Assembly (NCBI GenBank): GCA_903813345.2
Contig: CAIIXF020000001.1
Span: forward strand, 8,373,098 to 8,437,097
DNA length: 64,000 nt
Origin: Owenia fusiformis
Lineage: Eukaryota > Annelida > Polychaeta > Sabellida > Oweniidae
Direction of reading: 5' to 3'
Below the pieces are notes generated by a model, which was not told the DNA's origin, searched no databases, and saw nothing but the letters and a program-made list of their open reading frames with translations. Shown piece by piece: positions 6,503 to 60,776 of this stretch. Each line of letters begins with the position of its first letter. Position 1 is the stretch's first letter. Both the position numbers and the translations under genes were made by a program.

Positions 6503-6508
6503 AATAAA
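6503..6508 (+). terminator. LTR poly(A) signal AATAAA
   Basis: AATAAA is followed by a GT-rich stretch (TGTTCTGTTGAATCTTTGGTG, in part). The copy that would act in the 3' LTR is at 14356-14361. It lies about 127 bp before the LTR end, which would leave a short U5. Confidence 0.6.
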
Positions 6509-6636
6509 TATAATTGAATGTTCTGTTGAATCTTTGGTGCAAACACATTTAACGTGTGTCACGTAACCCACAAGGTATACAGAGGTCTATTAGTCCACAC
6601 TACCATAATATCCACAAAAGGGCCTAACTGTTACAC

Positions 6637-6654
6637 TGGCGGCAGCGGTGGGAT
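6637..6654 (+). other. Primer-binding site, tRNA-Leu type
   Basis: TGGCGGCAGCGGTGGGAT starts one base after the 5' LTR. From memory of animal tRNA-Leu(AAG), whose 3' end reads ATCCCACCGCTGCCA plus CCA, this is complementary at 17 of 18 positions. The position, TGG start and match all fit a minus-strand primer site. Confidence 0.8.
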
Positions 6655-6698
6655 TGATATTGTTTCCAAAGACGAACCAGAACTAGAGAATTTACAAG

Positions 6699-9371: not shown

Positions 9372-9807
9372 CAGCAGAGTTGTGAGTTAGACATTTTATA
9401 GCTAACTTGTTTGTTAGAGACTTGAAATCGCAAGTCACCCTTAGCCGGAAGTTGCAATTCTTTTGAAAATAGAAGTTTGCATTTCATGTAGTTAGAAATT
9501 TTTGTTTTGGACATTTAACAGTTTTAGGAAACCATAAGATAATGTGTCCAGGATTTTAAAATCTTACATGTACATTGTTTTAGCAATTAGTATTGTTGGT
9601 TTGTACAAATTTTGTAAAGTTTGTTTTTGTAAATTATAGTTAGATTTTCGTGTACATAGTGAGACATTTTGTAAGTTGTACTAGCAACTAGTTGCAAACA
9701 ATTGTACAGTTGTATTTCGTTAAGATAGCTAAGTCAGCAAAATTTTGTTATTTTTTTTGTACTTTAAGCTTGGTGTTGTAAACACCAAATTCATTGGATT
9801 GGAGGAG
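9372..9807 (+). other. Noncoding 3' interior and polypurine tract
   Basis: About 430 bp of T-rich sequence without a substantial open frame, ending in GGATTGGAGGAG (9796-9807) immediately before the 3' LTR TGTAAC. The terminal GGAGGAG is a plausible plus-strand primer (polypurine tract). No remnant of reverse transcriptase or integrase was seen. Confidence 0.75.
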
Positions 9808-19184: not shown

Positions 19185-22100
19185 ATGGAGGCAGGTACAG
19201 GAGAAATAGATGATCTTGCCGCTCTTAGTAGTCTCAGCGAACCCCTTCTCCTAGATGAGATAAGGATAAGATACAGCAAAGATATAATATACGTGAGTTA
19301 CAATAATCTGTTTGTATTTGTGGGATATATACATGTTTAGGGAGATCGTTGTATATAAATGTATAATGTATAAGTGTTTCACATTAAGTAGATGTTAAGG
19401 AAATATATAGTTGTATTTTGTATTCCTTATTTAGATGTGATTGCATGGCATATTGCTAATATTGACCATAGGATACAGTCAAGCCTGTGTATTTGGGATA
19501 ACCGTTCTCCCAACACAGGTTTTACTGGAGTGTTATAGCAAGTTATAGCAAAGTTATTTTCATTGAATAATCATCTTGAAGGAACATGATTTAATCCTGA
19601 TGCACTATTGATTTACATAATTCATGGGAAGGGGCAGACGGGAATACTAATTTGAACAATAATGAAAATAATTGAAAAAATTATTTTCTCCCAAAACAGG
19701 TTTTACTGTAGTGTTTAAACAAGTTATAGCAAAGTTATTTTCACTGAATAATCATCTTGAAGGAATATGATTTAATCCGTATTTATTTACATAGTTCATG
19801 GAAGGGGAAGGGAATTTTATTGTCATTTAGAGGTGTTAGATGGGATTTACTTCAATTTGCTTTACTCAATCATTTTATTTTAATTTGAATATGAAGAGAA
19901 TTTGTATTTAAAAAGAAATCCTGAAGGATCACAATTTTTAGGACTGAGTGAATTTCAAACTACAGTACATGTAGTCAAATTGACATCATGCTTTGAGATC
20001 ACCTAATAAACCAGAAATTGCATGAAGGGCGTTGTTTTTAAAAAGTTGTATCAGGTTAGATAAAAGCATTTCCCTATGATTCTATTTTTATGATTATTTA
20101 TGTGACGTTTGATGTAGCTTTGAGGGTTTATACTGCCCTTTATCACCATTACATCCAAAAATTATCAAAAAACAAATTTGGTTAGATGCAATTACAGAAA
20201 ACAGTGTTAGCCAGGATTCATAAATTGTGCCGTATTGCCTTTGCTATTTCTTCACATTGCAGTTATTGTTGTGATTTGTGACTTTGATAACCAATGCTTT
20301 ACATTTTGCATGTTGTTTCTGCATGGCTTTTTGACTTTTGTGTATTCTAGACCTACATTGGTGACATTCTAGTCGCAGTCAACCCATATAAACGACTGCC
20401 TATATATGGGCCAGAAATTTCTGAGAAATACAGCAATATTAAAGTAAGACAGCATCATTTGCCCCATCTCTATGCTATATCTGATCAAGCCTACCAGAAG
20501 CTATGCAAGACAGGGGCAAGTCAGTGTTGTGTGGTCAGCGGGGAGTCTGGTGCAGGTAAATGGGACAAGGTTTAAATTATGTACTGTAAAACCTGTAATA
20601 AGTGAGCTTGAGAAATATTTGAATTTAGATATCGTAAACAGCTTACTATACAGGTATGTACATTCAAAACATATTACTGTACAGTGTACTTTGATAAAAC
20701 TAAATTGTCTGTTTTATAGATTGACCCATGTTTTTCATTTTGAATGATTGATACCTTCAGATTAGTAATAGTGTAAATACTTAAGTAGTAATTTCACCCT
20801 TGCATGGTTTTATCTAATACTTTATTGTGAGTTCTATATTAAGGTAGCTTGCCTTGAATGTTTATATCAATTGTTCAGCAAAAACTTATCATTATGACAG
20901 AGGGGTTAATATTGATGGAGAAGATGAGTTTAAAATATTATTTTGAAAGTCTGAATTGAGATGAAAAGCAGTTTAGATCATCTACATTTCCGCATTTAAT
21001 GTCTCGGGATTAAGAAACATCAAGGGTTCCATCAAATCTAAAAAATGTAGAAACAAATATATATATTTTTTTAATATGCTTTGAATGGCCAAACTGACCA
21101 GAGGAAGTACAATAACACAACATAAATCGTCCACTCCTCTTATTCAAGGATCTGGATCTGATTTAATGTTATTGAAGTCAATATCATATTTGGAAGACAA
21201 AGACTTAGAAAATCAGAATTTTATTCAATCATTTGCTGAAGAGTTGTCAAAAGTCATGTTGTTATTATCAATATATTTTCGGGTTATTTTCTCAGGAAAT
21301 GTTGAATATGCCACTATGAAACAATTTATCGGACCACATTTTCAATATATTCCAAATTACAGGTAAAACTGAAAGTACAAAACTCCTAGTGAAACACATT
21401 GTGAATACACTATGCAACCAGAAGGACACCAGCCTCCATGAACAGATTGTAGAGGTAATTAAACCACACTAGATATTACATGTTCTCTGGCATTGATATT
21501 CTTCAATACTTCCCTAGCCATTCTGTTAAATTAAATTGTTGCATTAAAATGTGGTTAATTGTTGTTTAGGGGCGGGGTCAAAATATCAATGTTCATATGG
21601 AGACGAAAGTAATTTCGTTTGGACAACAACCCCCTCACCCCCCCTCTAGACGAAAGCTTAGGTCACTTCAAAAAAACATTGATTTTCAGTGACTGTCAAT
21701 TGATTTGGAACCCGGGTTATTATTACGGTGAATTAACACACGTTCGCAATTTAAAGGCAGAATCAGATCTATAGGGGGAGACAAAATTACAAGCAACGTG
21801 CATAATTGACCTACCAATCTATTCCTTACAATCTCAAATACAATATCTCCCAAAAGATTCACAATATGCTATAAATTGGCGAACTTATTAATGATTCAAA
21901 GTGCAAAAATGGATGAAAAATGTTTAAATTCTCCCAAATAATAAGAATGGTAACCATTCTTATAGAAAAATAATACATTATTGTAAAAATCTTTTGTTTT
22001 CCTTGAATAAAGTATGTACTTTTGTGATTTTTAGAAAATAGACATGACAAGGAATGACATGAGCCAAAAATATTCTAAACTTGAAACAATTTTTTGTTTA

Positions 22101-25100
22101 GCCTGCTCGCTATCTCTGATTCTCTCTTTAACTGCATTGAACTCTTCAAAAGGAGGAGGGAAAAGTACGGAATTTATTTGAAAAATGATCAAATTATCGT
22201 CTTTATCTACCAATATTTTGGACATATCACACAAAAAAGCTCACGAACTATTGAAAACAAGCCTTTTTATCAGAACATAGCGCCAGAAAAAGTGGGTAAG
22301 TCCGATTATTTTTTGTATATCAGATCCGAATTATTGATGTTTTTTTTGGTCAACGAAAGTGCCCAAAAACCCCCTCCCCCCCTCGCGAAAGTACTTTCGT
22401 CTCCATATGAACATCGATATTTTGACCCCGCCCCTTAGTAAGTTAATTACTTCAGCATAAAAAATGAAGACAAATAAATAGAAATAGGTTCTGATTTATC
22501 AAGATATAATAATAACAAAACCTTTTTTGTAGGTGAACCCTCTTTTGGAGGCATTTGGTAATGCACGTACTGTTATGAATGATAACTCAAGTAGATTCGG
22601 CAAGTTCATTGAGCTGAAGTTTACACCCGGGGGAGAGGTCATTGGAGGTATGTGATTATGCAACAGTGTAGAATTTGTATATCAATTTTTACTGCCAACT
22701 TTATTAAATGCAGTGTCAGGTTATTTAGTATTTTTGTTACCAACAAAAATATTTTATCCCAAACAATTTCTGTTAATTGATAATCAGTAATTAAATGTTC
22801 TTTTGCCATAAGAGAGTTTTTGCAGCCATGGGGATGTATAAATGTATGCACCATATATTGTACGTACAATATTATGATGACCTTTCAGCCAGGATAGATG
22901 ACTACCTACTGGAGAAGTCACGTGTAGTCCACCAGGGTCCTGGAGAAAGAAACTTCCATGTGTTTTACTACATGTTTGCTGGAATGTCCAAAAAAGAATT
23001 GAACGATCTTCTCTTAGGGAAGCCTGAGAAACATAGGTACATTTTATTCTCCTACTTGGGGGAGGACCTTACCATTTGAAGAAAATAGGCTTTATATATA
23101 TCCAAGGGAAAATGTTATGGGTATAAATGAAAATCAAGTATTTTGTTGTAATAGTTTAAAATGTGCTTTATGTGTTAACAGCTAATGTGCTTTCATAGTG
23201 CCTGATTAAAAACATTTGTCTCATTTTTAAGAAAATTATACCACTTTTGATAAATAGAAAAGTGATAACATTCTCTATGAACGCATACAGCACTTTAGGT
23301 TATTGTTTTATTTGTAGGTTCCTGAAGCCGCGGGATGGAAGTGCAGTTTACACATCTGAGTTAGATTTCTTCTATAACAAAGACATGTATAGAAAGCTGA
23401 CTGAGATAATGGAACTAGTTGGTTTCACAGAACAAGACCGCAAAATGATCTTTGCACTCCTGGCTGCCATATTGTATGTGGGCGATATCCAGTTTGAGAA
23501 GGATCCTGACACTGATGGGGTTTACATTGTAGATGAATATCCCCTTGATGTCGGTAAGTTAACTTTACTATCATGTATCCATGCTCATGATATACAGGCC
23601 CGTCAGATGGGGGGGTGCGATGGGTGCGACCGCACCCCCCTTTGACACCTCCCCCAAAAAAATTAAATTTTTTTTTTTTTAAATATTGAAAAATATTTTT
23701 TTGTACTTTTTTTTCATCATCTCATACACTTTTAAAGTGCCCAGAAAGCATCAAATAACATCTTAAAATTGTAAAATTTTCTACAGGGAGTGGGCCACCC
23801 CTCACACCCCCCTCAATACAATGGAAAAGTTCTGAATTTATTTTATGTATTGTCTCAGACACTTTTAAAGTGCCCAAGTGCCCACACATCATCACATAGC
23901 TCCTTGATATAGTCAATGTTTCTGGGGGACTAACACTTGCTCCCCTTCGTGATCCCCATCCCACCTCCCTCTGGCACCCTCGCCCCCCTTGACACCCCTC
24001 CAAAAAATTGAAAAAATTGTGATTTTCTCAATTTTTTAATTCACTCATACACTTTGAAAGTGCCCAGAGAGCACTAAATAGCATTTTAAAATTGTAAAAT
24101 TTTCTAGGGGGAGTGGGCCACCCCTCACACCCCAAAAAACAATTGAAAAGTTCTGAATTTATTTTATGTATCATCTCAGACACATGTAAAGTGCCCAGAC
24201 ATCATCAAATAGCTCCTTGATATAGTCAATGATTCTGGGAGACTAACACTTACTCGCCCTCTTGCATCCCCATCCCACCTCCCCCTTTGACATCCCCCAA
24301 AATATTGTGACTTTTTCAAATTTTTTATCGAGTCATACACTTCGAACGTGCCCAGGAAGCACCAAATAGCATCTTAAAATTGTAAAATTTTCCAGGGAAG
24401 TAGGCCACCCCTCACATCCCCAACAAAACAATTGACAAAAATTCTTAATTTATTTCATGCATTGTCTCAGACACTTTTAAAATGCCAAGACTTCATCAAA
24501 TAGCACCTTGATATGGTCAATGTTTCTGGGGGCAGATATGGGGACACACACTTGCTCCCCCTCTGGCACCCTAATCCCACTTCCCCTCTGGCATCCCCTT
24601 TGACACCCCCTAAAATTGAAAAAATGTAATTGTTTTTCAATTTTTTTTTCGATTGACTCATACACTTTAAAAGTGCCCAGAAGCACCAAATATCATCTTA
24701 AAATTGCAAAATTTTCTGGAAGAGTTGGCCACCCCTCACACTCCCCACAAAACAAAAAACAATTGAGAAAATTCTGAATTTCATGTATTGTCTCAGACAT
24801 TTTTAAAGTGCCCAGACATCATCAAATGGCACCTTGATATGGTCATTGTTTCTTGGGGCAACCCCTTGCTCCCCCTCTGGCACTCCAACCCACTTCACTC
24901 TCTCATTCTCTTTGACATCCCCAAAAATAATTTGAAAAAAAATTCACATTTTATTGACTCATTCACTTTAAAAGTGCCCAGAAAGCACCAAATGGCATCT
25001 CAAAAGTGTAAAATTTTCTAGGGGGAGTGGGTCACTCCTCAAAAGTTTGGAAGTTGCATTTGTTAATTTTAAACACTTTAAGAGTGCCTAAAAGTCACCA

Positions 25101-28100
25101 AGTGACATAATGAAATCATAAAAAACATAAAAATTTCTGGCAGCCCACTCCAAAAACTAAAGCATTCATTTACTCAAACACATTAAAAGTGCTCAGAATT
25201 AACCAGACAGCATCTTGAATTAGTAAAATTTTCCTTGCTGCCCCCCTAAGAAGAAATTGATTGAAAAAATCTGAATTTCTTATCAATAGATTCTATTCCA
25301 ATTAAAACACCTTGAAAGGGTCCAGAAATCACTAAATGTGATCTTGAACTGGTAAAAGTTCTAGTAAGCTTACACCCTCCCCCTATTCTAGTGTTTCTCC
25401 AAATTTCTCATACAATATTAAATATTGTAATATTAATATTATATTTAGTCTTAAAACAATACGTAAACAATAAAATACTACAAAATATAGGGAGTAACCG
25501 ACCCCCCCCCCCTTTTGACTTACGCAATTTGATTTACGCGGCAAAAAAATTGACAATTTTATTTTCTCTTTAGTTAAAACCGCACCCCCCTTGGAGAAAA
25601 GTGTCTTACGGGCCTGATATATTAGATATCAGAACAGAAAGACAGTGAGGATTCTACCAGTTGATATCCTCACTGTACTTCAGGGTTACGGCACGATCAG
25701 TTTTTTTATAGTTTAAAAATTATTCAAGTTGATACATATCAATTTTTAGAACTAGTCACTTGATCATGCATTTTTAACACTGAGCATGGTAATGACTTAT
25801 CCTTGCCAAATCATGCATATTGTATTTCAATATGTTTTGTTTCTATTTCAGTTGCCGATCTACTAGGGCTATACCCAGAGGAGCTAGCGAGGATATTGAT
25901 ATCAAATCTTGCCATAATTAGAGGTAGGTTTTCCTGTTTGGAAGTATGGGAGTAAATTTAATGATTAAAAGGATAATACAAAATTGTTTGCTGTTTCTGA
26001 GCTGCATGCTGATGACACTATGAAGGATTTCCCATTTAAATTGTAGTGGTGCAATGTTGTCAGAAGAATTGTATACAAAAAAAAGTTGCTTACATAATGT
26101 CTTGAATCAGTAGTTTATAATTTGTATAAACGTCATAGCGTCTATATCAAAATGTAAGCAGGCTCATATTGTGATAACCCTGTGGATATATTACTGTGAC
26201 AGTTTGTTTTGAACTGTTTATATTTGAAGTAGAATGATATTGATTTAATACATGAAAATGATATTGAGATGTGTCTGCTGGTGTCTGTATAGTCATTTTA
26301 ACCAGTTAGGTCTCAAACCTTCAAAATGACTACTTGTGATGTTACAATTATATTTATATGAGATGTCCACTACTGAACACACTTTAATTTGTTGTAATTC
26401 TAGGAGAAAGGATAGTCAGTATGAAGAATCTCTACCAAGCCAGTGATGGCCGTGACGCACTTGCCAAATCCTTATATGGTCGTCTTTTTGACTGGATCGT
26501 CAGGCAGATAAATATTAAATTGAAACCTGAGCATGCTGCAAGGTATGGAAGCATTTTGATTTGTCATTATTGTCAATATAAGCCTAACTTGTCATTGTGT
26601 TATGTTATATGTTTAAGTACAATAAGTTTAGGAAATATTCAAAGTATACGAAACTGTATTTAGATTTGAAATGTATATTCATTTTGTTCAGCTGGACAGA
26701 ATCTTGTTTCATGAAATTATGATTATTTGTATGAACTTCATGCATTAAAACTTCAATTTTTAAATTTCAGTGCTTCAGCACAGATAGGCATTCTAGACAT
26801 AGCTGGATTTGAGAACTTTCCCCATAACAGCTTTGAGCAACTGTGTATTAATGTTGCCAATGAACAGCTGCAGTTTTATTTCAACCAACACATCTTCACA
26901 TGGGAGCTGGATGAGTATGCTAAAGAAGGAGTCAAGGGAGAAAAGATTAAGTTTGTCAATAACCGCCCACTTCTGGATTTATTTCTAGAGGTAAGTTAGG
27001 TTTTTTTCTATATAGCATGGGTTTCCCGGCAAAGTACCAATGCATTATGGGTAATGAGGTTATGTACTCCGTAATATTGGTGTATATCTGAGAAAATATT
27101 TATGAAGTATGGAAGAAGGAGCTGTTAGATTGTGTTACTTTGTGTGTTATATCATAGTTTGGGATATCGGAATCTTGAGCTATGACTAATTGAGCTTTTG
27201 GGTGTTTTTTGCTGCACATTGTCATCCTTGCACTACATTTAGTCAAATCAGGGAAGATGGTTTTTGTATTAAACTAAGTGGCACTTGTGCTCACATACTA
27301 ACAATATTTGCTCAACCTGGCCGAACAGTAAAGACTGGATATCTCGTGTGATTTTAAATTGAAACTACAGCGTCCTGACCAATGTCTGTGGTGGTGAATT
27401 AGGATGTTAATTATGATTTAATTTTTTCTGATGATGAAGTATACAGAACAAAAACTTAAACAAATGAAATAAAGTATTTCAGAATTTTATTCAGAAATAA
27501 AAAAAGTTAAATAAAAAAATTCACTAGCAGTTTCTCGGTTGAATGTTAGCCCATAAGAAATGATGTGAGATTTGAATGTCCATTGCTTGAAATGCTAGAA
27601 GTTCAGTGACCTTGAATCTAATATGGATGATATGGTTGTATGTCAGGCTTAGTGCCTCTTTGTGACACAGACACCTGCGTATTCATCAAAGACAAGTCCG
27701 TAAGGGCAGGGACGGGCAAGGGCTTTTCCAGAGGCATCACACTGCCAGAAACAGCTTTCGTCAGAGTGCTTGAAGTGGAATTTCTGGGCAGGGGCCTGGT
27801 ATGCGTTGTAGCTATTGTGCCTGTTGTAGCTATCATGTCCGTAGCTTGGCTGGGCAACGTATGTCTCAGCTGGGTAGTAGCTCTTGGGGCATGTGAAGTA
27901 GCTCTGGTAGGTGGTGGCACATTTCTTGCAAGTGTTGTACATGTAGGAGCCGTATCCATAGCTAGTACAGTGGCTGTAGCTGGTGGTCTCATAAGAGCTG
28001 TAGCTGCTGTGGCTGTTGTAGCTTGGGGCTTTGTAGCTGTCTTGACTCTTGTAGCTTGGGGCTTTGTAGCTCTCTTGACTCTTGTAGCTTGGGGCTTTGT

Positions 28101-31100
28101 AGCTGTCTTGACTCTTGTAGCTTGGGGCTTTGTAGCTGTCATGTCTGTTGTAGTGGTAGGTTTCCTTGTAGTAGCCATCATTCCTCTGGTAGGGGTTGGT
28201 GGGGTACTTGGGGTCATATGATTCACTGGAATTAAAGAAATTAAATCTTTTAGAAGTGGATGATTTAAAAAATAAGGTTTTTCATAGAATTGGGAATAAA
28301 TATGGGGAAGCCTTGCAGAAGGATTGGTGGCCTAGCAATGGTAATGGTTATTTCAGTCACCTTGCTGAACAAATAAGATATAGAACATAAATTGATAAGT
28401 TGTTTATTTGAAATAAAAGTAGATTTAAAGGCTGTATGTTATAAGTTTAACTACTGAATTGTTGATTTACTTGGATAGTTTAAGCTTCGAGTGATCCTGG
28501 CAGCCAATTCAAATATTCATTAATTTGAATTACACCTATAAAGATATTCTTCAGATTAATATTTTTATAAAGCAATATCGGATAAATGTTACATTACAAA
28601 TGTCCCTTTTCATCAGTTCATGATAATTTAATTGTGTAAAAGAGGCATTCTCTCACATTTAATTGCATTCTTTTACTCTCATTATTCTTGTGTGGCAGTT
28701 GATTAAGTGCATTTTAACTTTGTAAATTTGATAGTGCCCTGAAGTGACTTTTATAATGCTACAATATAATGGCACCACTCTGTAACCTCTGATCTCCAAG
28801 TGTCACTATTTTGTGCATAGAATATATTTTTATTCATACTGTCATTCTCATAGACCTGTCAGTATGCATATGATAAATTATGTGGCAAGTGGAATGCAAA
28901 AATGTCTGATGACTTTTTTATTTAGTACCTTCATTACAAATAAGTTTGTTTATTTCTCTGTCAGATCCATAACCAAATGGATTTTGTTAAAAACCTGAAT
29001 TCCAAAACATATGGGAAGGATTTAAGCTTTATTTTTTTAAATGTTGCATCAATGGTATTTCATTTAAAATATGGTTGACATGGTTGTCTGTTTTTCATAA
29101 AAGTTCAAGTGGAACTTCATTATTTGAGATAAAAATTCTTTATAGCTACATATATGAAATCTTCCTATGTTAAAAAAAATAATTAAATAAAAAAGATTGT
29201 AAAATCAAATTCACCATACAATAATGACCAGCTTAAATATTGATGCTTGAAAAAGATAAAACCCAAATTGAAACAAAAGTTACTATACAATAAAATACAT
29301 ATTACTTACGTGGCATATTCACTGGCCATTGCCACGGCAACGCATCCCAACAAAGCTACAAGTACAGTCTGCATGTTGATTGTCTGTGTTGTCAAGCTAA
29401 GATAGATTGATATTTTCTGGAGAGCTCATTTGGCTTTTATACCCTAATCTAACTACCCAGGTGTTACCACAGGCTGAATATGTGACCAGAATAGTTTTGA
29501 TCATTTAATTAAAAATAAGTCAAGTCACATACAATACTGTACACATAAGTATTTTCTCAGTTTACAATTTACATTTTTATATATTCAAAGGAAATTTTGA
29601 CTTTAGTTCTGTCTAATATATTTGGTGCATATATTATTGCTATAAACACTATTGTATTTTATAGAAAGTATAATAGTTCTAGAAATAGTATAATAGTTCT
29701 AGAAATAAGAAAAATATATGTTAGCAATAATGGATAACAATCAAGGTTACAGTTGTGAACTCTAGGTTTAAGCTATGTGTTCATTTTTCAGAATAGTACT
29801 ACGGGGGAATATTTTGAATATATTCTCTCTAAAATGTCAAGAAGAGTCGAAATTACATTTCATCGGTGTTTGGACTTTATTTCCATGCATTTATCGTCAT
29901 GTTCTCCGATTAGTGAGAGTTTTAGAACAGGAAATCTTTGAATTCTTCGTTTTATTACATAACAACTTCTCGAAGTATCAATTACATGCAATTAATATGA
30001 TTTGAATTAAGTGATGTGACATGTGTTATGCCCAGGGACATCACCTGTGCTCATTATTGTGCAGACTTGTGTAGTGAGCGCTCAGAGAAAATCTTCATTA
30101 CCTTGTTTTATCTGATATTGCGTACAAATGGGAAGGAAAACATGTGCATTAATGTTTAAGATAAATACAGGAGTATTAGGCTGTTTTAGGGGTCCTTGTG
30201 TTTGCTCTGTATAGAGCTATCACTTCAACAATACCACTCTCTCATTTCTCTCGTGTGCTGTTTAACCTCATGAAATGGTGCTGATTAGACATCAAATGTC
30301 CCTATACTGTATATACATGAACATTTCATTAAAAAATATTTCAGAGGTTTTTCTATCAAAAATCATATTTTAGGTTTTGAATGGATAAACAATAAAAGAG
30401 GTTGAAAAACTTGAGACTGGTTTCTCTTGCAAAACAATCATGTCCCTAATTGCCAGACATGCCAAGCACTGCAATTCTAAAAACTCTGAATGTCTTACCT
30501 ATGTTTACCCCATGTTTATGAATCCATTTGCAATCATGTATTATTTTGGTATTTCAGAAACCATTGGGTTTGTTCTCCTTACTGGATGAGGAGAGTAAGT
30601 TCCCCAAGGGATCAGAGCAGTCACTGTTAGAGAAGCTTCAGAAACACCTGGGCAAGAAGCAAGCATTTAAAGCATCTCGCTCAAGCCATGATCTGAGGTT
30701 TACCATAGAGCATTATGCAGGAGAGGTGGGTGTTTCATATGTTTGATGTAAACTGTATAATGTATACTTGTGGTGCCAATGGTCTTTAAATATGCAATTT
30801 TATATTTACAAATCGCATAGATTTCTTTTGTTTTACCATTATATTGTCTTCGGTATTTTTGTTTAACCATTAGTGAACAGTTGCCTTCAGTACTTACTTA
30901 TCTCAAAGAACAATTTTTATTTTTCAGATACATAATGAATCTTTGGATGTAGACAGGAAAACCTTAGGTCATAAGATCAACCCCAATACAATATTTCAAT
31001 ATTATAAAACACCATTTTGACCTATCAGTCTATAATTGATACACTTTGACCTCAAGTTTATTGCGACCATAAATTAGCAACTACATTCCAGCCATATCCG

Positions 31101-34100
31101 GCATTTGAATTTTATGATTATTTTGAAATTCATCAATTTCAAAAATTATTATTCTTGCAAAATATATTTCAATTTCAGGTGAATTATGACATGCATGCTT
31201 TCCTGGAGAAGAATCGTGACACACTAGGGGTGAATATAGTTGAGTGTATGCAGAATAGTGACAGTCAGATCGTAGCTGATTTATTTACTCCAAATGGATC
31301 ATTTGAAACCAAGTAAGACATGATTTTAGATTTCCAGGTTTTAGATTTAAAAAGTTTTTACAAAAATTAGCTAAATTGTGACAAGTGAATGATTTTATGT
31401 CTTTTACTTATTTTTTAATAATAAATAATACATTTTTTTCAAAAGATAAGATTTATCTTTGTCACAATTAATACTTCTTAATATACATACTGTTTTAAAT
31501 TCAAAAATAATTTTATTGTGAAAACAAAATTCACCTTGTATTTATATATTTGTATGGTTGTGTGTATTATTTGTAGCAACAATTCAATGCAGAGAACTAG
31601 AAAGTCAGTGCTCTACTGTAAAGCTCCAGATCCAAAACGGTTTGAAAGTTTGTCAAGAAAAGCAGCAAAAAAATTGCTCAAAGAAAAGTAAGTTTTAATT
31701 TCAACTGCTTATTAGACGAGTACATATTCTGCCAAGATGTTTTATTAGTTATTTTATTGGTGAATGGTGAATAGGGCCATGTTGCTACTTTATATCACCA
31801 GCATTCCTGGTGGTTATAAAGTCTTCAGATCACATTCTTTAAGGAGAATATGAAAGTCAGATTGTATTTTGAAAAAAACTGAACAATATATTTTTAAGAA
31901 TACAACACAACCCCAAAAATTTGGATTTAGAAAACTGCACAACCCAAGAAATTTGGATTTCAAATAATCAATTTTGTAGAAATCCCAATAGTATGCATTG
32001 GGGGGAGGGCTACAATATTTGTATCCAAAACTTAACCTAGCATATTATGTTTATACTGAATAATGTAATGAGTTTGTATTTTAGAGCTAAGCATTCCGGT
32101 GCACCTGATTCAGCAGTACAGAAAACAGTCAGTGCCTATTTCACAGTAAGTAAAACTTTAACATTTGTTTAATGAAAATTATTGTCTATATTGTATAGTG
32201 TTATTAATTCAGTACTACAGGCCTTGTTGTAGAGAAAGCTCATAGTGTAAATTCACTTTATTATTAGGCTTTAACTTTTTTAATAACTACTTTATTGCTT
32301 CTTGTAGAGTTCCCTGACTGAACTGATGAGGAAATTGCTGGAAGCTGAGCCACAGTTTATTAGGTCAGTTCATGTATATACAACTTGTATATCGCCAGAA
32401 ATACAGACTGCTGGACTTATTCAGTTTTAGTTCACACCATGGATCAAATTTTTTTGTTTTATGCACAACAGTGAATTTAGTAGTTTCTTCTTGGGATATG
32501 TGTTTTATTTTTGTAACATTTAGAGTATTTAGTTGATCTTTATCTTGAATGAAGAAGTAAAAATGTATGAATATGTTTTGTTATTTATTAATATATTTTT
32601 AGGTGTATAAAACCAAACACTGATCAAAGACCAAACATATTTGACTCCCGAATAATCCTCCAACAGTTGCGTTACACTGGGGTTCTAGAAACAGTGAGGA
32701 TTAGACGGATGGGCTTCCCTACACGCTTGCCTCTGGAGGTGTTTGTAAAGCGCTACAGAATTATTGCATTTTCTTTCACTGGTCACGTGGAGCCCTCACA
32801 CGGCAACTGTCGCAGAATCATAAACAAAGCGAACCTTCACAATTGTGAGATTGGAAAGAATAAGGTGAGCTTTATAATGACATATTGCCAGTGATACTAC
32901 AGTGAAACCTGTATAATCTGAACAGTTCTGAATGCCGATGGGACCAGTCAAAAGTATTTGGATTAGCAGGTATTCACATTTCAAGGTTTTTTATAGGTCA
33001 ATGGAAGATAAGAAATTTGGTACCAAGCAAAAGTGTTCACATTGAGAAGTAATCGAATTAGATACATGTTTGGATATACAGGTTTCATTGTATTATGTAA
33101 TCACAGGCCTGTTATAAGTGCTAGACCAGGATGTTTATTCTGAATCTAGTACTATATATACAGAGATAATCTTTGTACTTTCACATAAACATACCACTTG
33201 ACTGTGCAATACAGTATCTTGTTGTGTTGTAATAATTCTTGGAACCCTTCTAAGATAGCACTTTGTCCTGGCAAACTTAGATAGTTTAACTGCTAAAGAC
33301 GTTATTGTATCACCACGCTTGTTAATAATAGAAACACCTTGATAAATGGTTTTAAATCAATTACCACTTCATACATTGGAAATGATAGTATTTGTGTGAT
33401 AAGGAGGGAACTTCAGCTTTCTTAGAAAATCTCATCCATTCTATGATATGTAAACATTTTATCTCATATAATTATCAACAATTGTGAAAGAATGAAGTTA
33501 ATTTTGTTTGAGGTGGGTAATGAGTGAGGAGTGCTAATTATTTAATACTCAAGTGAAGGACATATCAACATTTTTAAATTTCTCTATATGAGGGGAGGGG
33601 AGCAAACCATAAAAAATTCATTTCTCCACAACTGTTGATTAATGGACACAATCCCTAAAATAAAGTATGTTTAATCTCTGTTATTTTCTTGGAATTTTAC
33701 AGGTGTTCCTGAAATACTGGCACAATGAGCAACTTGACCTTTGTCTGGACAGGGTCATTAAAGACATTGTATTTGTGCAGTCATATGTGAGGGGATTCCT
33801 GGCTAGGAAACGTATAAAAGTTATCTTAGCTAACGTGCACAGGTCGAAGAGTCTGTTGTCAACATTCATGGTGATGTTATCTCAGGATACAGAGAGGTTG
33901 TTTTATACAATGAATTCACAAAGAGAGCATGATGCAGCGAGACATGAACGAGAGGTAACGATTGCAGCTTTTCTTTATTTTTAAACGTACATGTTCAGTA
34001 AATATATATATCTTTTATTGACTCTTAGAATGTCATGGTATGACACATTAGTCAGTCTCATTAAACGTGAGTAAGTGGAACACCTTTTGTACCTCTAAAA

Positions 34101-37100
34101 AGTGTTCCTCTTGGAGATGTTCCACTTCCAGTTACATTTAAAATTAAGTCAGGATTTGATTCCTTGATGCACATGAAAAATAGAAAATTTGTATAAGTAC
34201 CTTTTTATTGATAGGTCATAGGACTCTGAAAAGTGTTTCACATATTGATCTTAAAGATGTGTTTCACTTGACAGAATTTTACTGAGCATTTTCATTTCGT
34301 TACAATATTACAGAATCACATGTTTAAGATCTGACAAATGGCATGCAATTTTGTTCTTTAGGTTGAAAGACAGCAAGAAGAGGAAAGACAGGCTGAGGTG
34401 AAACGTCGTCAACGAGGTCAATTCCGTTATGGCCTAGACACACCCAGAGACTCCATCTATCACTTAGGCCAGCAAGTACCAAACTATAAAGCCCCAGAGG
34501 AACCTCTTGCTGACTACACAATAGACCCTAAAAGAGCCACTAAACCAAATGGTTTTATTAAGAAGCCAACATCTGGTTATGATGGCTATGAAAGACCTGT
34601 TGTGAAACAGAATATAAAACGAAAACCAACAAAGCATGATCCAAAGTAAGACACTGATTTTGACTGAAATATAGTCACATTCATATTCTGCCTCTTTTTT
34701 GTATAGTTAGTTTTCTAACCATTTTATCTAATTTCCATGTCGTCAGCCCCCTATTTAGATGTCTTTGTATATCCTTAATATTAAGAATAAGATTTTCCTG
34801 TGTTTCCAGCCACCAATATTTCAGTCATGACACACTTCAATCTAATGCTGGGACAGCCATCTATAATGAAAGTGAATTTGAATACAGTGAATTTGGGCAT
34901 TACAGTAGGGGAAAGGTGGCGCTACCCATTGCACACTTGGCAAATAAACCAAAGCGACTGTCAAATGTTGACTTTTATGATGTAAGTTTCTTTTTTATCA
35001 AATATACATGTACAGTATTGTAATCGATTTTCAAGGTATCATCTTACCCATAATAGAACTCAGCTAATTCTATGTTTTATTTCATTATCTCTAAATGTTC
35101 ATTCTCCATCTTTAATCAGCAGATCGAAATGAGTAGATAATGCTATCATTATTAAAACATATTTTGTTTGTTTGCCAGGATATACTGCATGAGGCCATCG
35201 ATAAATATGGTGAGCTAAGTAGAGATATCTGGAGCAAGATCCTATATGTTGAGAAAGATGCAATACTTGCCAAGTTCTACGTGAATGAAACTGAAGTGCT
35301 AATAGATGGCAGTGATGTACAATATACCGGTGACACGTGAGTATACAAAACGACTTATTGGTTAATTTGGAACACAAAGATTTGGGGACATTATCACATT
35401 ATGTTTGAAATGTGTTTGGGTTTGTGGGTCCATAATTCAAACAAAAATAGATATGACAATCTGATTGAATTGTTACTTTATATGTGTTTAATAATTGATT
35501 GTATGTAAAACAAAAACATGAAGAGAAAAATGGTTGACCACATGAATTACATATTGTTGTTTTTAGGATTGGACTTGGATCCATTGACAATCCAAACAGA
35601 GATGAAAAAAGTAAAAAGATCAGGGACTTTATAGGAAGAGTAAGTAAAATGATAGTTCAATCACATGTACAATGGATTCTGATTAAGTGACTGCTTGCTT
35701 ACCAGCCAGAAGTTTTCAAATTGAGAGGTTTCCACAATATTGTGCTACTAAGTTGACAAAAGGCCTTCACTGGCTGGAACTGTCTGTTGACCTTGCTGTA
35801 GGGTAAATATGCCAGTTCTTCAACTTGGTCAAAAATGGGGAGAACTGTTCTACCTTTATTGATCATGGTTCCATGATAGTGTAGTATGACCATGAAATAT
35901 AGGATTTGGACCAAGAGGTTATGCCCAGCTTCAAAGGTGGTAGATAGAGAAATACAAAAAAACTTTTAAGAGCTTTAGTTGAAATAGTCAATGGAACCTC
36001 CAAAAAATGTTGCCATAAAAATCCTCACATTTTAAGGTGTTCATCCTGTAGAGTTACAGTAAAACCTGTATATTCAAAAACCTCTCAATATGGTCACTTT
36101 TTCCCAATATTGTTATCTCCCATTGACTCACATATTAAGAAACATTGAATGGAAAAGCATGCATCCAAACTCATGGCCTCTCTTAATGGTGTTTTGATTA
36201 GACACAGTTTTCTTCTATTTTCCTTTTGAGGGGCATTTGATGAAATGAGCAACAAGTAGTTTTATTTGAAATGCTACAAATCATTTTGATATGTTCTATA
36301 TTTTAGGGACTGATTCTGAAACATGATAATGATGGGAGCATTTGGGCCACGAGGATCTGTAAAAATGATATTATTGTGAAGGGCTATGAGAATCCAGCTC
36401 AACACAGTCTCTCGGAGGAAGTTGTACTAGAGATGGGGAGACTGCCCATGAATAAACCAGTGAAGGTACATACTAGACCTTTAGGTCACACATCCTGCAG
36501 TGGATTTGAAAGTCCACAGTAGTGTATGCTAACTTGCTGTACATTTCTGTAATTTATAAAGTATACATAATTTGAAAAGCAAATCTGTAACATTCCACAT
36601 CATTGCTTGAACTCCAAACTTACAATATTTACATTCTTAATGTGTCCTCCATTGTTAGGTGTTTGACATGAAAGAGTTCAAAAGTCATATGGCCCTCGAG
36701 ATGTCAACGAACCAACCAAGGTCACATCGTCTACAACGACAGGCAATTGTTGCCATCAGTTTTGTGCGTAACACTATCGAAGATTTACAGACTCCATGTT
36801 GGATTTGCATTGTCAATTTTGCTGCATTAGATGCTTTGGAGAATGAAAAAGGTAATGTATTTATTGCACTCCATATGGAAATATCAATAATGTAGAGATC
36901 AGTTACATTAAGTTGTTTTGTCGTTAGCTTCCATATGTCCAGAAATCATTTTGCTGGATTTGAACCTGTGTTCTGCTATTTTTGAATAACCTGTGTTTTG
37001 AATGACTTTACTTATCAGCAGATACCAAGGAAAGACCAATTTGTGCAAGAATACTTGGCAGTAAACTGAGAAGAGTTTCACTGCGTCTGACATTAATTCA

Positions 37101-38321
37101 GCCATATATTCATATACAAACTGTCACAACCAAACCAACAAGCATCTAATCTTTGCTCCTTACCTCCCTACTAGATAGTACACTTTATAATTTCAGTATT
37201 GATGGAGGTACAGAATCTCTCCCATCTGAATCTTAACCGCCCTCAGTCCTCAACTTCACAGAGTAGTCACTCTCAGGATCCACCCCCACAGAGACACAGG
37301 TCCTATGCATACAGGGACTCGCCACAGAGGAGCTCACGTCATCAACGCAATGAACTCAGAAAGCAGGGAAAAGTAGTTGGGGATCATGATGAGTACAGTT
37401 GGCATGAAAAATATTATGGTAGGTCATAATTGATGCCTTGATGGAATATTTATTTTGGTAAATATTTTTGTTAGTAAAGTGCAATTAATCCTAATGAATT
37501 GGTTTTGATCAATACAAACATGCTCTACTTCAAATCGAAATAATGGAAACCCATCTCATCTGTTTTGAGGGTTAAAACTTTATCTTTGGAATAATCTGGG
37601 TACACCAACAACAAAAAAACAACTTAAAAACATCTTGGCTTAACAATCTCAAGATCAGGATACAGGATATATCACTAACTTACGTATCTCCCTAAAGCTC
37701 TACTGGGCATAAGATATTGCGTTTTATTGGAGGTTACAATCTTCACATTTTGTCCTATTTATTATCTGCTCTTGAGGATATATTATCTAATGACTGCAAA
37801 TGTGCTGGAATTTGCCTTGATGAATTCTTATTCTAATACTGAACATGTATAAAATTATCTTATTGAGATATTTGTGTTTAGATTCACCCATGCCTCGCAG
37901 GAGCTTCAAGATGAAGAACTCAAAGATAGAAGAGGAACATGAAGAAGACAGAGCAAGTTACTACAAGGGACCTGGTAATACTTAAGTTTATGATTTTCCA
38001 TATGGCCATTTAATTTCATGAAAAAATATCACTTGATAACTTGTATACCAGTTGTCAGATTTGGTACAAATGTTATGTGCCATCAGCTGCCTTGTTATTT
38101 CTGTCACATAGTCTAGTTCTGATGAAGTATTCCAAAAAACATTTTTTAATTTGTACTTTTATTATGTAATTGCAGATTTTGTGGATTCCCTTGTGCAGGA
38201 TAGACGGCCCTTTAGTTATACAGAGCCATCTGTTGTGCCCCAGGGAAATGCATATGGCAACAAATATAACCCTATCAGAGTAAATTCATCTCCACGCAAG
38301 AACTGGGCCAAGTTTAAATAG
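19185..38321 (+). CDS. Unconventional myosin with MH2-like tail
   Basis: Actin-based motor, 1292 residues. Coding exons: 19185-19292, 20351-20555, 21363-21454, 22533-22647, 22889-23036, 23318-23553, 25852-25923, 26404-26542, 26771-26990, 30558-30725, 31179-31312, 31577-31687, 32085-32145, 32308-32363, 32603-32864, 33703-33954, 34362-34645, 34810-34981, 35179-35336, 35567-35639, 36307-36465, 36659-36851, 37197-37418, 37882-37974, 38176-38321. All junctions are GT-AG and in phase. Motor 1-712: P-loop GESGAGKT (100-107), switch [11 protein letters not shown] (151-160), switch II DIAGFE (381-386). It starts directly with the motor, without a kinase or SH3-like domain. One IQ motif (about 730-748), then a short charged helix. 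Residues about 960-1139 align with SMAD MH2: [45 protein letters not shown]. The rest is polar and Arg/Ser-rich, ending KNWAKFK. The motor looks closest to class III, but the class is not settled. Confidence 0.9.
21569..22434. mobile_element. Harbinger-like MITE in myosin intron 3
   Basis: Long, nearly perfect terminal inverted repeats: left GGGGCGGGGTCAAAATATC, continuing through CATATGGAGACGAAAGTA; right end is its complement with two mismatches over about 45 bp. TTA lies on both outer sides, fitting the TWA target of PIF/Harbinger elements. 866 bp with no transposase frame; a non-autonomous copy. Confidence 0.82.
23595..25616. mobile_element. 2-kb TIR element with internal tandem units, myosin intron 6
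   Basis: Ends CAGGCCCGTCAGA and the complement of CAGGCCCGTAAGA, each followed inward by GGGGGGTGCG. ATATA flanks both sides and may be a target duplication. The interior holds five or six diverged units of about 290-300 bp. Each has CACTTTAAAAGTGCCCAGA, TCTTAAAATTGTAAAATTTT and GAGTGGGCCACCCCTCAC, so each unit may itself have two related halves. No transposase frame. A similar start (CAGGCCCGTAGCC) occurs at 63243. Superfamily not assigned. Confidence 0.75.
27486..27491 (-). terminator. Poly(A) signal of the nested gene
   Basis: AATAAA on the minus strand, about 160 nt after the TAA stop codon. It would end the transcript well inside the myosin intron. Confidence 0.6.
27649..29374 (-). CDS. 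Secreted Tyr-rich repeat protein, chitin-binding type; nested gene
   Basis: Two exons on the opposite strand inside myosin intron 9: 29310-29374 (65 nt) and 27649-28225 (577 nt), joined at GT-AG in phase, giving 213 residues. Residues 1-18 are a signal peptide ([18 protein letters not shown]). Residues 51-94 are four copies of an 11-residue unit, [11 protein letters not shown] with small changes. Tyr is about one residue in six over the protein. The C terminus has several cysteines, and about 176-209 (CFWQC...[14 protein letters not shown]) matches the second half of a peritrophin-A/CBM14 chitin-binding domain; the first half is poor. A TATA box and a poly(A) signal frame the gene. The Tyr/Lys/Pro repeat resembles DOPA-type adhesive or sclerotised matrix proteins. 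A role in shell, periostracum, byssus or mucus matrix is inference. Confidence 0.85.
29434..29441 (-). promoter_or_regulatory. TATA box of the nested Tyr-rich gene
   Basis: TATAAAAG on the minus strand, 60 bp upstream of the ATG at 29374. A start about 25-30 bp downstream would give a 5' UTR of roughly 30 nt. Supports the nested gene having its own promoter. Confidence 0.7.
32900..33090. mobile_element. Small TA-target MITE in myosin intron 15
   Basis: Ends CAGTGAAACCTGTATA and the complement of CAATGAAACCTGTATA, with TA on each outer side (32898-32899, 33091-33092). 191 bp, noncoding. The CAGTNAAACCTGTATA end also appears singly near 36057, and as a close inverted pair (CAGTCAAGCCTGTGTAT... 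ACACAGGTTTTACTG) at about 19478-19530, so the family is repeated here. Ends and TA duplication fit a Tc1/mariner- or pogo-like family. Confidence 0.72.
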
Positions 38322-44300: not shown

Positions 44301-47300
44301 CAAATTTAATACAGTATGTCAAAATATCCTATATCAATGAAAATGTCACTTATCCAAAAAAGTGAGCCACTTTTTGACAAGTATTTTCTAAGCAAATAAT
44401 TAACCAAATTCAAAATGAATTTTTTACAAAGTGGACAAAGAGTATCATCAGCAATTCTTATAAATATGAAAGAGATCAGTTACATATCATGCGAGTGCAA
44501 ATTCAAAACATTACCTTTTCGTGTTCCTCTGGTACATGTTGTTTGGCATACTTGGCAAGTTCCAACATCTCTGGCATAATATCCTGTTTGTCATAGCTGT
44601 TTGTACAGTTGACAAACACTTGGGCTGCTGGGTAGAGGATTCCTTTATCAGAATGCTATAGAAGAGATCAACATAAAGTACATTAACAGAAATGCATCAA
44701 TGCGATGCTTTCAAAATAAGCTCAAATTTCAGAAACTCAGCTCTGACATCCTTTTAAAGCAGATGCCTATTATAAGTAGATACTAACCTATAATAGTATC
44801 AATAACATGAATAGAACATGAAATCTAGAGGTGGAATATATCCAGCTGATGTATCATTATCGTACCTTTGCAAGATCCATGAGAGAATGTAGAGCAGGAG
44901 TGTCATCCACTAGGTCTTCCTTGACATCTGCATCCAAGGTAAGGTATGCAAGGCCCTCTGTGGCCCACTTACGCAGATCAACATCTTTACTGGGATTCTT
45001 TAAGTATCTAAACAAAACAACATCATGTTCACTATACTGTACATTTCTATTATGTATTGGTTATTCGAACATGACTATATTCACGCCGTCTATAAACTGT
45101 AAACAAAGCCAATATTTCAGCTGGGTTATATTCAAGATCAATAACCCAATTAACACGTGTAATGTGTGATGTCATAATGGTGGGTCATAGTAATGGCGAT
45201 CCATGATGAATATTCGAAACAATTTGGTGAGTTTTCATGTTCGAATCATAATATAGACCTCAGAGCAGGGGTAATATCGTCGAATACACCCCTTGGGGCT
45301 AGGCACAAAAGCTTTCGAACCCCTCACTCCCTTCGGTCGTTCGGGGTACAGAAAACGTTTGTACCTAGCCCTGCAGGGTGTATTCGACGATATAACCCCT
45401 GCTTTTCGGTCTATATTTCTTTATTCAAATATTATACGTGATGTCACAATAGCTAGAACAATTGATTTTCTGGTCTATAATGGAGTATGTATGACTGCTA
45501 AAATTCATAAATCCAATAAGTTGTGTTTCTTGTCTGTTTACCATATTAGAATCGTAACAAAGACCTCGATTTTGGGTCATATTTGGGTCATATATCACAC
45601 CATGAATCATAAAATCTCAGCCTTTACTAATTAAATATGAAAAATCCAATATAGAGTCAATTACAGGATGTTATTGTACACAATTTTTCAATTCTAGGTT
45701 TAAACAGATATGATAGATAAATTTCCAGGATAGACAAAGCGTATATACAACTCCTTAAATGCAGAGTTGCAACCCATCTCCTTAAATGCAGAGTTGCAAC
45801 CCATCGATGTTGTTAAAAGTTACTAGCCATGTGTTTCTAGTCCTTAGGATTCATCCAATTTATGGAACTCAATTCAGTTTAAGAATTTTTTAAATATCAT
45901 TACCAAGATTTATTCAAAAAATTATATTACTCACTTTCTACAAGCTTTTGCTAGTGTCGTATTGGATCCATCTGCAAATGACCTCATACTGACATCAGTG
46001 CCCCCTATTGAGCCTAGCTTACACAATCCCTGTAAAACACATATAAGATGTTTACATAATCAAGAAACCTGTTCTAACATGTTCTAAGAGATTGTTAAAC
46101 TCTTATGATCCTGGTTCTATTATTTTGCAATTCTTACTGATCAATAACGATCATAAAATTCAAGAAAAATTGAAGAAAAATATCATGTATTTAATGGTCC
46201 CTTTTCCAGAAGCTTGAAAATCTTTCATATAACTTACCACAAGGGCTCTGACTTTGATTGTTTCATTTTCCGTCTGATAGAGTTTCTTGAGAATCGGGAC
46301 AGCCTGTTTAATTATACCACTGGACTTCTGCTTCTTGGAGGTTGAGTGAACCATTGCTTCTATGGCAACTTTCTGCAAAACAAAATATGATTTATGTACG
46401 ACAGTGTCATGATTGGCATCATTTTTATATATAAGGTAGGCTTATTTGAATCAGTTTAATTTGGATCATACAAATAGCCTTGGATACTGATACCATACAC
46501 TACTAGGCCTAAAATCCACTCCACTTGACCTACCTAAAATTAGTGGTGGTATAAGATTTAAACAGTAGTATCACAAAACACAATCCATTTAAAACTACAT
46601 GTGCCTTACAGAATGGTCTAAAATGGTCTAAATATGTACCTGGAAAAGTGTGTTTTCAGAGCCTGCCATGGCTAGCATTATCTCTAGTACCCCCTCTCTA
46701 CTGAGGATATGGTTCCCTATGTCGAATGGTCCCTGAAGAAGAGCTGTTACTGCTTTCACTGCCTCAACTTGTGACTCTATGTTCTTATCTGTAAAGTTAT
46801 CTCTGAAACAACAAGCTTGATATTACTAATACTGTTAACTAAAATATACTGTACATGCATATAATATTGAGATTTGTGATAATTCACATAAAATACATAC
46901 TTAGTACAACAGGGCATACTAAGCATGTAATCCGCCAGAACCCACGGATGATTCAAAAAGGTATTCGTGACATTGAGAGATGAGTCAATCTATGTGTAGA
47001 GAAATGGTGGTCATGTGAAGGGGTATAGAATATAATCTTTCACTTACGTAAAATAGGCATCAACTTTTTCTCTGTATATTTCTCTCTCTTTGTCTGCCAG
47101 CATATCATCATAGAGTTTCTGCAATGCTACGGATGCGTGCATCTGTGAGTTGTCGGTCACTGGCATAGTTTTGTATTCCTTAATACAACCAGCAATCTCC
47201 ATAAGCTTATAGAGACCCTCAGTGTACTCGATGAATGTACGGGTCCATCCAACACCTCCTTGACGCGCCACAAATTTGATAAGAATTTCAAGTAAGGAGT

Positions 47301-49500
47301 CACGCCCACATCCAGATATCTTGCTACTGGTTAAAATACCAATAATAGCATTGAAGATTTCATTTATCATCTTTTGCTCCTCATCCTCTGAAACAGATAT
47401 CAATCAGTATGCATATTTTAAACTTAACGAAGACAGGATTTTCAAATGTAACTCAAAAAGAATGTCACGTCACATACCCATTTTGAATGCTTTAAATGGT
47501 CTAAGATGTCTGTCAACCTTCTTCTTGCGCTCATGGGCTTCTTTCTCCTCATTGTACTTGCTCACTCCACTGATAGATTTGATGAGGTTCTGTAGAAAGT
47601 AGGCCCCTGCTGTGGAAATATCTTCATCAGGCACACCAATTCCCAACAGAATCTTTTGCATCCCTAACTTGGTCAATATCTCAATGGACTGAAAGAAACA
47701 AAAGTTCATTGTGCATTGTGATAAAAATCTACAATATTTACGCTTTTATTTTCCACTGTACTATTGGGTGGGTTTCACATTTTTACAAACTCAAAAGTTC
47801 TTATTTTACATTCTTTGATATTTATTATTTTAGATTGATATAACTTTCAAATTCCAATCACCAAGGCAATTTTACACACATGAATAAATGCACTGATTAA
47901 AAATTGAATATCAGACTTAAATTTTCCTAGAGCTCACTTCAGGTTCTGATCACATTATGCATGCTGTGCTTATTTCGAAGATTTTAATACGGATTCCACT
48001 TTCTGACAAAGGACTGCACTTTTAATCAAGTGACTCAATCAGAAGCATTTCTCAACTAGATCTCAAGCTCTCTGGGACAAATGAGAACTTGATAATCATT
48101 AAAACCTCTATTGGAATATCAGAATCCAAACTGGCGAGCACAGCCAATTTAAGATACATTGCCAATATAGGTCATGTTGCTGAGGTGTTGTCAAATTTTC
48201 ATATTGGGTTCACTTACTCTTTCTTTGTTCTCCTTAGTAAGACACTGAAGTACCCTAACAGCAGCTAAAGCCAAGGATTTGTCCTTTATACTCAATAGTT
48301 CTATGATCTTGGGAATACCACCAGCTTTTACTATCTTCTCAGCACCTGATTCCTCTCTAGCAAGAACTATCAGGTTATTAGCAGCCTACAATTGTAAAGT
48401 GTAGTGATGTACAGTAAATGATAGAATGTTTGAAGAAATTAGTGATAATTTAGTTTTGGTATAAACAGACCAATCTGCACTTTTTTCCTTTACTACACTA
48501 AAGACAGATTGTAAGCACAGAGAAAATAATACTTTGTTTGCATCATGCTGATGACATATTTATTTCATATGATGAAGTATTTACAAGATGTGAAAATTTT
48601 GATTATGATTGCATTCTGGTATACATGTTTCCAATTATCAAAATAGTATTTTCAGTAGTTATACAAAGTTCAGTATTGACAAGGTAACCTAATCAGTTAA
48701 TTTCATAGACAGTAATACATATTACAAGTAATATTATCCCAGTATAAAGGTTTGATGGCATTAAGCTACTGGCAAACAGCTTCCTTACTTGTATTCGTTT
48801 TTCATTATCTCCTGACGAGTGGTTAAAGACGAGATCAAACATTTGAGATACTTTGCTGTCAAGGCTCGCAACTTTTGAAGTCTTCTGTTGAATGACCATT
48901 GTGAGTTGACGTAAGATTGGTTGAATTGCAGCATTCTTAGGGTCTACATTGAGTAGCTGTCTGGCATCTTTGTACGCATCTTCATACTTTTCTAGGTGTT
49001 GGTATGCTTGACAGCGTCTGAACAGAGCTTTTGGGTCATTTGGAGATATCTCTAACGCTGAAAGTAGAAAGTCATTAGAGAATCTAAATAAGATGTATTG
49101 TATCTAGACAACAAACTCTCCTTTCTCACTTAAGGGAGAAACTTTCCTATCCATAGCCTTCAACTTTAGAAAAAACATAGCTTCTCCCTTGAGGGGAGCC
49201 ATAACAGTTTCTCATATAACATACCCACTTGTCAAATGTAGTAACATTTAATAATTGAATGAAAAATTGTACATGTACATTAAAATGCTTGCTTTTACCT
49301 GAAGTTGTATCCTCTATAGCTGCACTGTATTTCTCAAGTTTCAAGTGACAGGCAGCTTTGTTCTTGAAATATGTTGCCTTTTCTTTGTCACCTTCTTCAC
49401 TCAAAGATAAGGCCTTTGCGTAGCAAGTCAGGGCATCCTCATATTTGCCCTGCTTGAAATATGTGTTCCCTTCCTCCTTCAACTCCTTTGGTTCTGGCAT
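41310..49500 (-). CDS. unc45: UNC-45 myosin co-chaperone (TPR + UCS)
   Basis: Hsp90-linked chaperone that folds myosin motor domains in the cytosol. 1036 residues from 16 coding exons: 49500-49299, 49057-48789, 48385-48218, 47688-47478, 47387-47048, 46802-46640, 46372-46238, 46029-45935, 45007-44866, 44655-44515, 44030-43848, 43584-43471, 43229-42996, 42623-42477, 42263-42120, 41732-41310. All GT-AG and in phase. It starts [20 protein letters not shown]; three TPR repeats fill about 1-115, followed by the central and UCS armadillo-like repeats to about 932. The ATG exon begins only 6 nt after an acceptor (49506), so noncoding 5' exons lie upstream. Known UNC-45 proteins are about 930-960 residues. 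Here about 100 extra charged residues follow, a Lys/Arg/Glu helix and then an acidic tail ending NEQSES. Convergent with the myosin gene. Confidence 0.94.
45252..45416. repeat. Hairpin-forming inverted repeat in UNC-45 intron 8
   Basis: Left arm (AATATAGACC, AGCAGGGGTAATATCGTCGA, ATACACCCCTTGGGGCTAGG) pairs with a right arm ending TCGGTCTATATT over about 55 bp with few mismatches; the loop is about 50 bp. It sits beside the dispersed repeat that also occurs, inverted, at about 1285-1560. Confidence 0.8.
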
Positions 49501-49899
49501 TTTTATCTGAAAGTCATGAAATGCATAAGTTAATCTCATTCTTACAGTGGATGGTGCATTTAGTGTTAAAGTACAGCAAAGAATAAAACTTGTGATTTGT
49601 TAGAAGTAGACTTTCACTTACAGTAGAAATGTCCATTTGCTTGTTCTGAAGGGGATGATACATACATTTACTAGCAAAATCATTGGCAGATAACCTTAAT
49701 AAAAACTCAACGATTATCATGAAATGAAGTCAGAACTTACTGTTGGGCTTCTCAGGAAATAGGCATGACATGGGAAGCCAAATATATTGTAAAGTTAAAA
49801 TTCTTTAGAGGAGCTTTAACTTGTCTTTTTGCACCTTTAAAGGCACTTCTGTATGGAAGTTTCCTTGGTTTGGATATTCATATTGAATAATTTACACAA

Positions 49900-60343: not shown

Positions 60344-60776
60344 CTGCAAACATAAGAATGGCATATGCACTGTTTGAACTTAAAGTATAAAGTGGGCATA
60401 AACACAGTGGTTTTTATTAAAACAATATGTTTTCTTTCAAGTGAAGTACCCATGATGATAAAAATATCAATTGAACAATTCGAAAAATTTTGAATAGGGA
60501 CCCCATGACAACATTTTTTCAAAATATTGAACCTATTTAATCAAAAGAGAATCTTCCTTTTCTGATTTTTATTGCATGAAAAGATTATTCAACAAGGGGT
60601 CTAAAACATCCTCAAAAATATAAAGGTAATTGAGAGTCTAGTTTTGAAGTTATCAATTTTCGATGACCAAAATTATGCTGAAAACAATGGATAGCACGAG
60701 TTTTCCCTATGGGAAAAAATAACATGGGATATGTGGTTTTAACTTTAATGCATTTCAATACCCATCCCCTTTTCAA

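Follow-up and report, generated by a model that had tools for sequence, protein, structure and literature searches.

A predicted gene of the annelid Owenia fusiformis joins a complete myosin motor to an MH2 domain whose closest relative found is Drosophila Expansion, and among the genome matches listed its nearest motor relatives are of the type of the chitin synthase myosins of class 36. Both kinships are well supported by sequence comparison. We read the gene product as an actin motor that would carry a chitin-export cofactor domain, i.e. a class-80-like MH2 myosin with an N-alpha-MH2 of the Expansion/Rebuf family, and we regard the chances of this reading as evenly balanced. The gene lies in a window of 64,000 nucleotides (the whole stretch of DNA that was analysed), and its parts and neighbours are listed in Table 1.

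The predicted gene model joins 25 exons. All 24 introns are of the GT-AG type with compatible phases, the reading frame holds a single, terminal stop, and the predicted product has 1292 amino acids; a possible small additional exon near position 37018 is omitted from the model. The motor is complete (residues 9-713, Pfam PF00063, E 1.5e-212) and retains what we take to be the P-loop (100-107), switch I (151-160), switch II (381-386, DIAGFE) and the TEDS position (E327). It is followed by a single weak IQ motif at approximately residues 731-748, which with 16.8 bits stays below the Pfam cut-off of 20.3. The Pfam MH2 match (94.9 bits, where the cut-off is 25; E 8.4e-27) covers positions 2-172 of the 174 in the profile, and the domain is not terminal in the protein. 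In the whole-protein Pfam scan neither the linker nor the C-terminal tail gave a match, and both the chitin synthase domain expected of class 36 and the MH1 DNA-binding domain expected of a Smad were absent. The MH2 domain is divided among four exons, and it was overlooked by an exon-by-exon Pfam search of the genome (E 0.001), which returned nine MH2 matches, none of them inside the window. The sequence-only reading had claimed an MH2-like domain in the tail of a myosin, spread over four exons and spliced in frame with the motor. This part stands: its coordinates agree with the gene model, the domain is found by Pfam and, through matches to Expansion and Smads, by phmmer against PDB, all six motifs quoted for it occur in the predicted protein and appear in order in the alignment, and in-frame splicing to the motor exons is predicted from the introns and the single stop.

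Table 1. Features of the MH2 myosin gene and its neighbours in the window.
Feature	Position in window	Strand	Basis
MH2 myosin gene, 25 exons	19185..38321	+	predicted gene model
Exons 1-16: myosin motor and one weak IQ motif	19185..33954	+	Pfam, gene model
Exons 17-18: charged stretch, then linker	34362..34981	+	gene model; no Pfam match
Exons 19-22: Expansion-type N-alpha-MH2 (N-alpha segment 948-961, MH2 962-1127)	35179..36851	+	Pfam, phmmer, alignment
Exons 23-25: 153-residue C-terminal tail after MH2	37197..38321	+	gene model; no Pfam match
Terminal stop	38319..38321	+	reading frame
Nested antisense gene in intron 9	27649..29374 (exons 29374-29310 and ~28225-27649, acceptor uncertain)	-	CBM_14 match
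Repeat-rich stretch in two copies	~2055..13885
gag-like ORF, 894 aa	6687..9368
UNC-45-like exons	~47044..49599	-	TPR repeats, PDB match
AMP-binding and PP-binding domains	57801..60379	-	domain matches

The top PDB match of the MH2 domain in the phmmer search was Drosophila Expansion (4r9p; E 4.8e-33, 117.9 bits), over 191 residues that include the N-terminal helix segment, and the identity to Expansion is 34%; the top Smad match was Drosophila Mad (E 1.6e-9, 41.2 bits). The Expansion match starts 12-15 residues ahead of the Smad matches, within the helix to which the N-alpha-MH2 owes its name. The 14-residue N-alpha segment, picked from the same Expansion alignment that was then scored, obtained a score of 24, which among 1278 windows of the myosin is reached by the segment itself only and was equalled in one of 20000 shuffles. 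The L3 loop carries the same six-residue gap as Expansion in comparison with five out of six Smads covering the loop, and an unrooted tree of eight sequences, two of the Smads being partial, separates the window domain and Expansion from the six Smads with 100/100 support. The reported loop length is 11 residues in Expansion versus 17 in Smads, and the N-terminal helix of Expansion covers the Smad trimer interface, where it would clash with a Smad trimer (PMC4388265). By its N-terminal helix segment and short L3, both judged from sequence, the window domain is an Expansion-type N-alpha-MH2, a name which could mean just non-Smad as one relative represents the entire Expansion family here. Expansion and Rebuf differ from the window protein in that they have no motor, carry their MH2 at the N-terminus and possess a CM2 motif outside of it. 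Smads share the Pfam family and the aligned motifs, but the window protein lacks their long L3, their C-terminal SxS and their MH1, and it has the additional N-terminal segment. The MH2 domain alone scores 26.8 bits for Pfam IRF-3, narrowly below the cut-off of 27, which fits a wider SMAD/FHA fold.

Elsewhere in the genome, exons of four Smad-like genes were found (1/5-, 2/3-, 4- and 6/7-like by reading). No intron common to the window MH2 and these Smads at the same place and phase was seen among the visible sites; the closest approach is in the Smad1/5-like gene, where an intron lies one base away. Queries with the MH2 of the window and of Expansion found no second N-alpha-MH2 gene in the genome, a missed match being different from a proven absence. 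The candidate at C3:17685445 (E 1.07) was set aside, as it reads like what we take to be an interferon-regulatory-factor domain. Two hits in Smad exons (E 2.37 and E 2.47) were taken as Smads, and C7:7867841 (E 2.68), which contains stops, was taken as noise.

For the motor, 65 of 210 candidates in the genome were scored, resulting in at least 18 myosin clusters besides that of the window, of which 14 were fetched in part; three of these 14 had fewer than 290 aligned columns and were excluded from the tree. In this tree of partial, stitched sequences, which comprises the window motor, 11 genome motors and human MYO7A and MYO15 and is without class III or XVI reference, the window motor forms a clade (SH-aLRT 97.2, UFBoot 93) with two motors on C10, one at 21.60 Mb and one at 25.52 Mb. 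Each of the two lies approximately 13-15 kb upstream of a chitin synthase exon on the same strand. Because the chitin synthase Pfam model also matches in four of 14 control genomes, all bacterial, these exons were read directly, and both frames encode WGTRE and QRRRW, the latter of which we take to be a chitin synthase motif. The WGTRE motif has been described for Kkv (PMC9894549). The two pairs of motor and synthase have the layout of class 36, each pair probably representing one gene. No MH2 match was obtained near either motor in the genome searches.

In a strict count, which takes a site only if the homologous GT marks the end of the aligned exon, the two class-36-type motors share seven of 12 and five of seven testable introns with the window motor, followed on the next branches by C10_19 (3/5), C7_30 (4/9) and C4_24 (2/8), while the remaining six motors share 0/10 (a class VII-like gene), 1/4, 0/6, 1/7, 0/8 and 0/8. 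When any GT at the homologous base is accepted, the numbers rise to 10/12 and 6/7 for the pair, to 4/5, 5/9 and 4/8 for the next branches, and read 1/10, 1/4, 1/6, 2/7, 3/8 and 1/8 for the other six. Intron sharing marks a wider group, since C10_19, C7_30 and C4_24 share introns too. Within this group, C10_19 has a higher raw identity to the window motor, measured over fewer columns (57.7% of 319 against 54.6% of 515). Class-36 myosins resemble the window protein in having the closest motors among the genome matches listed and common intron positions, but differ in their tail, which is a chitin synthase. The III-like nature of the window motor rests on the published papers, our own tree being without a class III reference, and visual inspection of the listed ORFs of at least 60 amino acids upstream of the motor revealed no kinase of the kind known from class III. 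Among the other myosin loci of the genome, C9:37986009-37994334 precedes a muscle-myosin-like gene and matches one and the same stretch of the motor (Pfam within 18-84) at least 12 times in tandem, which may reflect a large array of mutually exclusive exons.

The architecture of motor plus MH2 is already catalogued, and the window gene is a further MH2 myosin, of the lophotrochozoan type. Such proteins have been on record since 2014, when III-like MH2 myosins were reported from the choanoflagellate Salpingoeca rosetta and the sponge Oscarella carmela, and it was suggested that MH2 arose first on myosins (Sebe-Pedros 2014, PMC3942036); by description, they also have a III-like motor with a C-terminal MH2. 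Kollmar and Muhlhausen (2017, PMC5583752) named class 80 for MH2 myosins limited to Ambulacraria. The lophotrochozoan MH2 myosins are polyphyletic orphans, with motors that group with or beside class 36, the chitin synthase myosins (PMC5583752). Class 80 and these orphans are like the window protein in their motor and in an MH2 in the C-terminal region, and the orphans also in the place of their motors with or beside class 36. Among the animals compared in PMC4595640, myosin-headed chitin synthases occur in lophotrochozoans only. The accessible text of PMC3942036 and PMC5583752 gives no function for MH2 myosins, and that of PMC5583752 no link to Expansion.

Chitin deposition in Drosophila depends on Expansion and Rebuf jointly with the chitin synthase Kkv (PMC4305360). 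When the N-alpha-MH2 is removed, extracellular chitin is not formed and chitin builds up intracellularly, and the domain was suggested to recruit partners which enable the translocation of the polymer by Kkv; by itself, the fly MH2 is not at the membrane, it is dispensable for apical localisation, and the accessible text names no partner (PMC9894549). Because the window protein has an Expansion-type tail and is next of kin to motors of the synthase-bearing kind, an actin motor serving chitin export is the simplest reading. The motor would move on or dock to actin, such as that at the cell apex or in microvilli, and the protein would bind the chitin synthase complex, with the N-alpha-MH2 acting by analogy to Drosophila as an accessory module of the synthase that lets new chitin leave the cell. 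The MH2 myosin may serve chitin export in trans, whereas class-36 proteins carry the synthase in cis. The largest doubt on this chitin function, which is suggested by analogy, comes from Ambulacraria, which have class-80 myosins: the deuterostome carriers of type II chitin synthases named in PMC3942024 are Branchiostoma, Ciona, Danio and Xenopus, and its main text mentions neither echinoderms nor hemichordates, nor Strongylocentrotus or Saccoglossus.

The most serious competitor keeps the protein family but treats the N-alpha-MH2 as a general-purpose adaptor for other apical or filopodial cargo, such as receptor signalling complexes, Expansion having acquired its chitin role later, in Ecdysozoa. 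We hold this to be quite possible, if somewhat short of an even chance. MH2 myosins of choanoflagellates, sponges and Ambulacraria (PMC3942036, PMC5583752) would suit such an adaptor, as would the many different tails borne by myosin III-like proteins (PMC3942036) and the reported role of Expansion in the control of receptor tyrosine kinase signalling (cited in PMC4388265). However, the closest motors among the genome matches listed sit upstream of chitin synthase exons, and those N-alpha-MH2 proteins which have been dissected act with chitin synthase (PMC9894549, PMC4305360). The adjoining suspicion that motor and MH2 are adjacent genes, united by an artefact of the gene model, could draw on the linker without known domain and on the fusion being known from a predicted model. 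We consider it very improbable: the canonical introns with their compatible phases speak against it, and the same architecture has been published from other animals (PMC3942036, PMC5583752). The fusion was accepted on account of the frame, the splice sites, the common strand and these published relatives.

The membership in the MH2 family common to Smads and the Pfam match (E 8.4e-27) would agree with a reading in which the domain is Smad-like, binds phosphoserine or Smads and links the motor to TGF-beta signalling. Nevertheless, we reject this reading as improbable, because the L3 loop is six residues shorter than in Smads, the terminal SxS is missing, the N-alpha segment is conserved and the domain is far nearer to Expansion, in which the same features accompany the absence of a reported part in TGF-beta signalling (PMC4388265); moreover, the genome has separate exons for its Smad-like genes. 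The sequence-only reading had gone further in this direction than its correctly recognised domain allows. Neither phosphoserine binding nor oligomerisation is implied by an MH2 of this kind, the proposed TGF-beta connection loses its support with Expansion as the closest relative found, and the remark that no named myosin class came to mind is superseded by class 80 and the orphans of the same architecture (PMC5583752).

If the actin motor with a chitin-export cofactor domain is the right reading, the link to Expansion gives MH2 myosins a testable function and offers an origin for Expansion and Rebuf, which may, by a further inference, be MH2-myosin tails that lost their motor. It suggests that animals coupled actin motors to chitin export twice, via a cofactor domain and via direct fusion to the synthase. 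A bolder version, which we hold to be rather unlikely, sees in MH2 myosins the motor part that the Expansion/Rebuf chitin-export machinery lacks: an ancient actin motor with the cofactor domain of the chitin synthase, whose sister motor was later fused to chitin synthase by lophotrochozoans (class 36) and of which Ecdysozoa kept the tail only. In that case, polysaccharide secretion might have been the task of the earliest MH2, which Smads took over for TGF-beta signalling afterwards, and the kinship with Expansion bears on the role of MH2 before Smads. Our literature searches, which left most subscription papers outside, found no paper connecting MH2 myosins with Expansion, though one may exist elsewhere; the word myosin is absent from the main texts of PMC4388265, PMC9894549 and PMC4305360.

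Several neighbours of the gene deserve mention. The antisense gene nested in intron 9 encodes a putative signal peptide, Ser/Tyr/Lys repeats and a chitin-binding CBM_14 domain (E 7.2e-5, 23.3 bits against a cut-off of 22.1). Its position is possibly due to chance, and while notable under the chitin reading, it was treated as a neighbour and not as a member of the system. Downstream of the MH2 myosin and on the opposite strand lie UNC-45-like exons with TPR repeats, one ORF of which matches UNC-45 in PDB (E 3.6e-11); UNC-45 is a myosin chaperone. Further on, an AMP-binding domain (E 3.3e-61) is followed in another frame by a PP-binding carrier domain (E 5.1e-5), a layout of adenylation and carrier domains that recalls Ebony, a cuticle-tanning enzyme. 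Near the start of the window, the two copies of the repeat-rich stretch are located approximately 7.8 kb apart, are 100% identical in parts and flank the gag-like ORF, in which an aspartyl protease match remains slightly below the Pfam cut-off. This arrangement suggests either a tandem duplication or a retroelement whose terminal repeats are very long.
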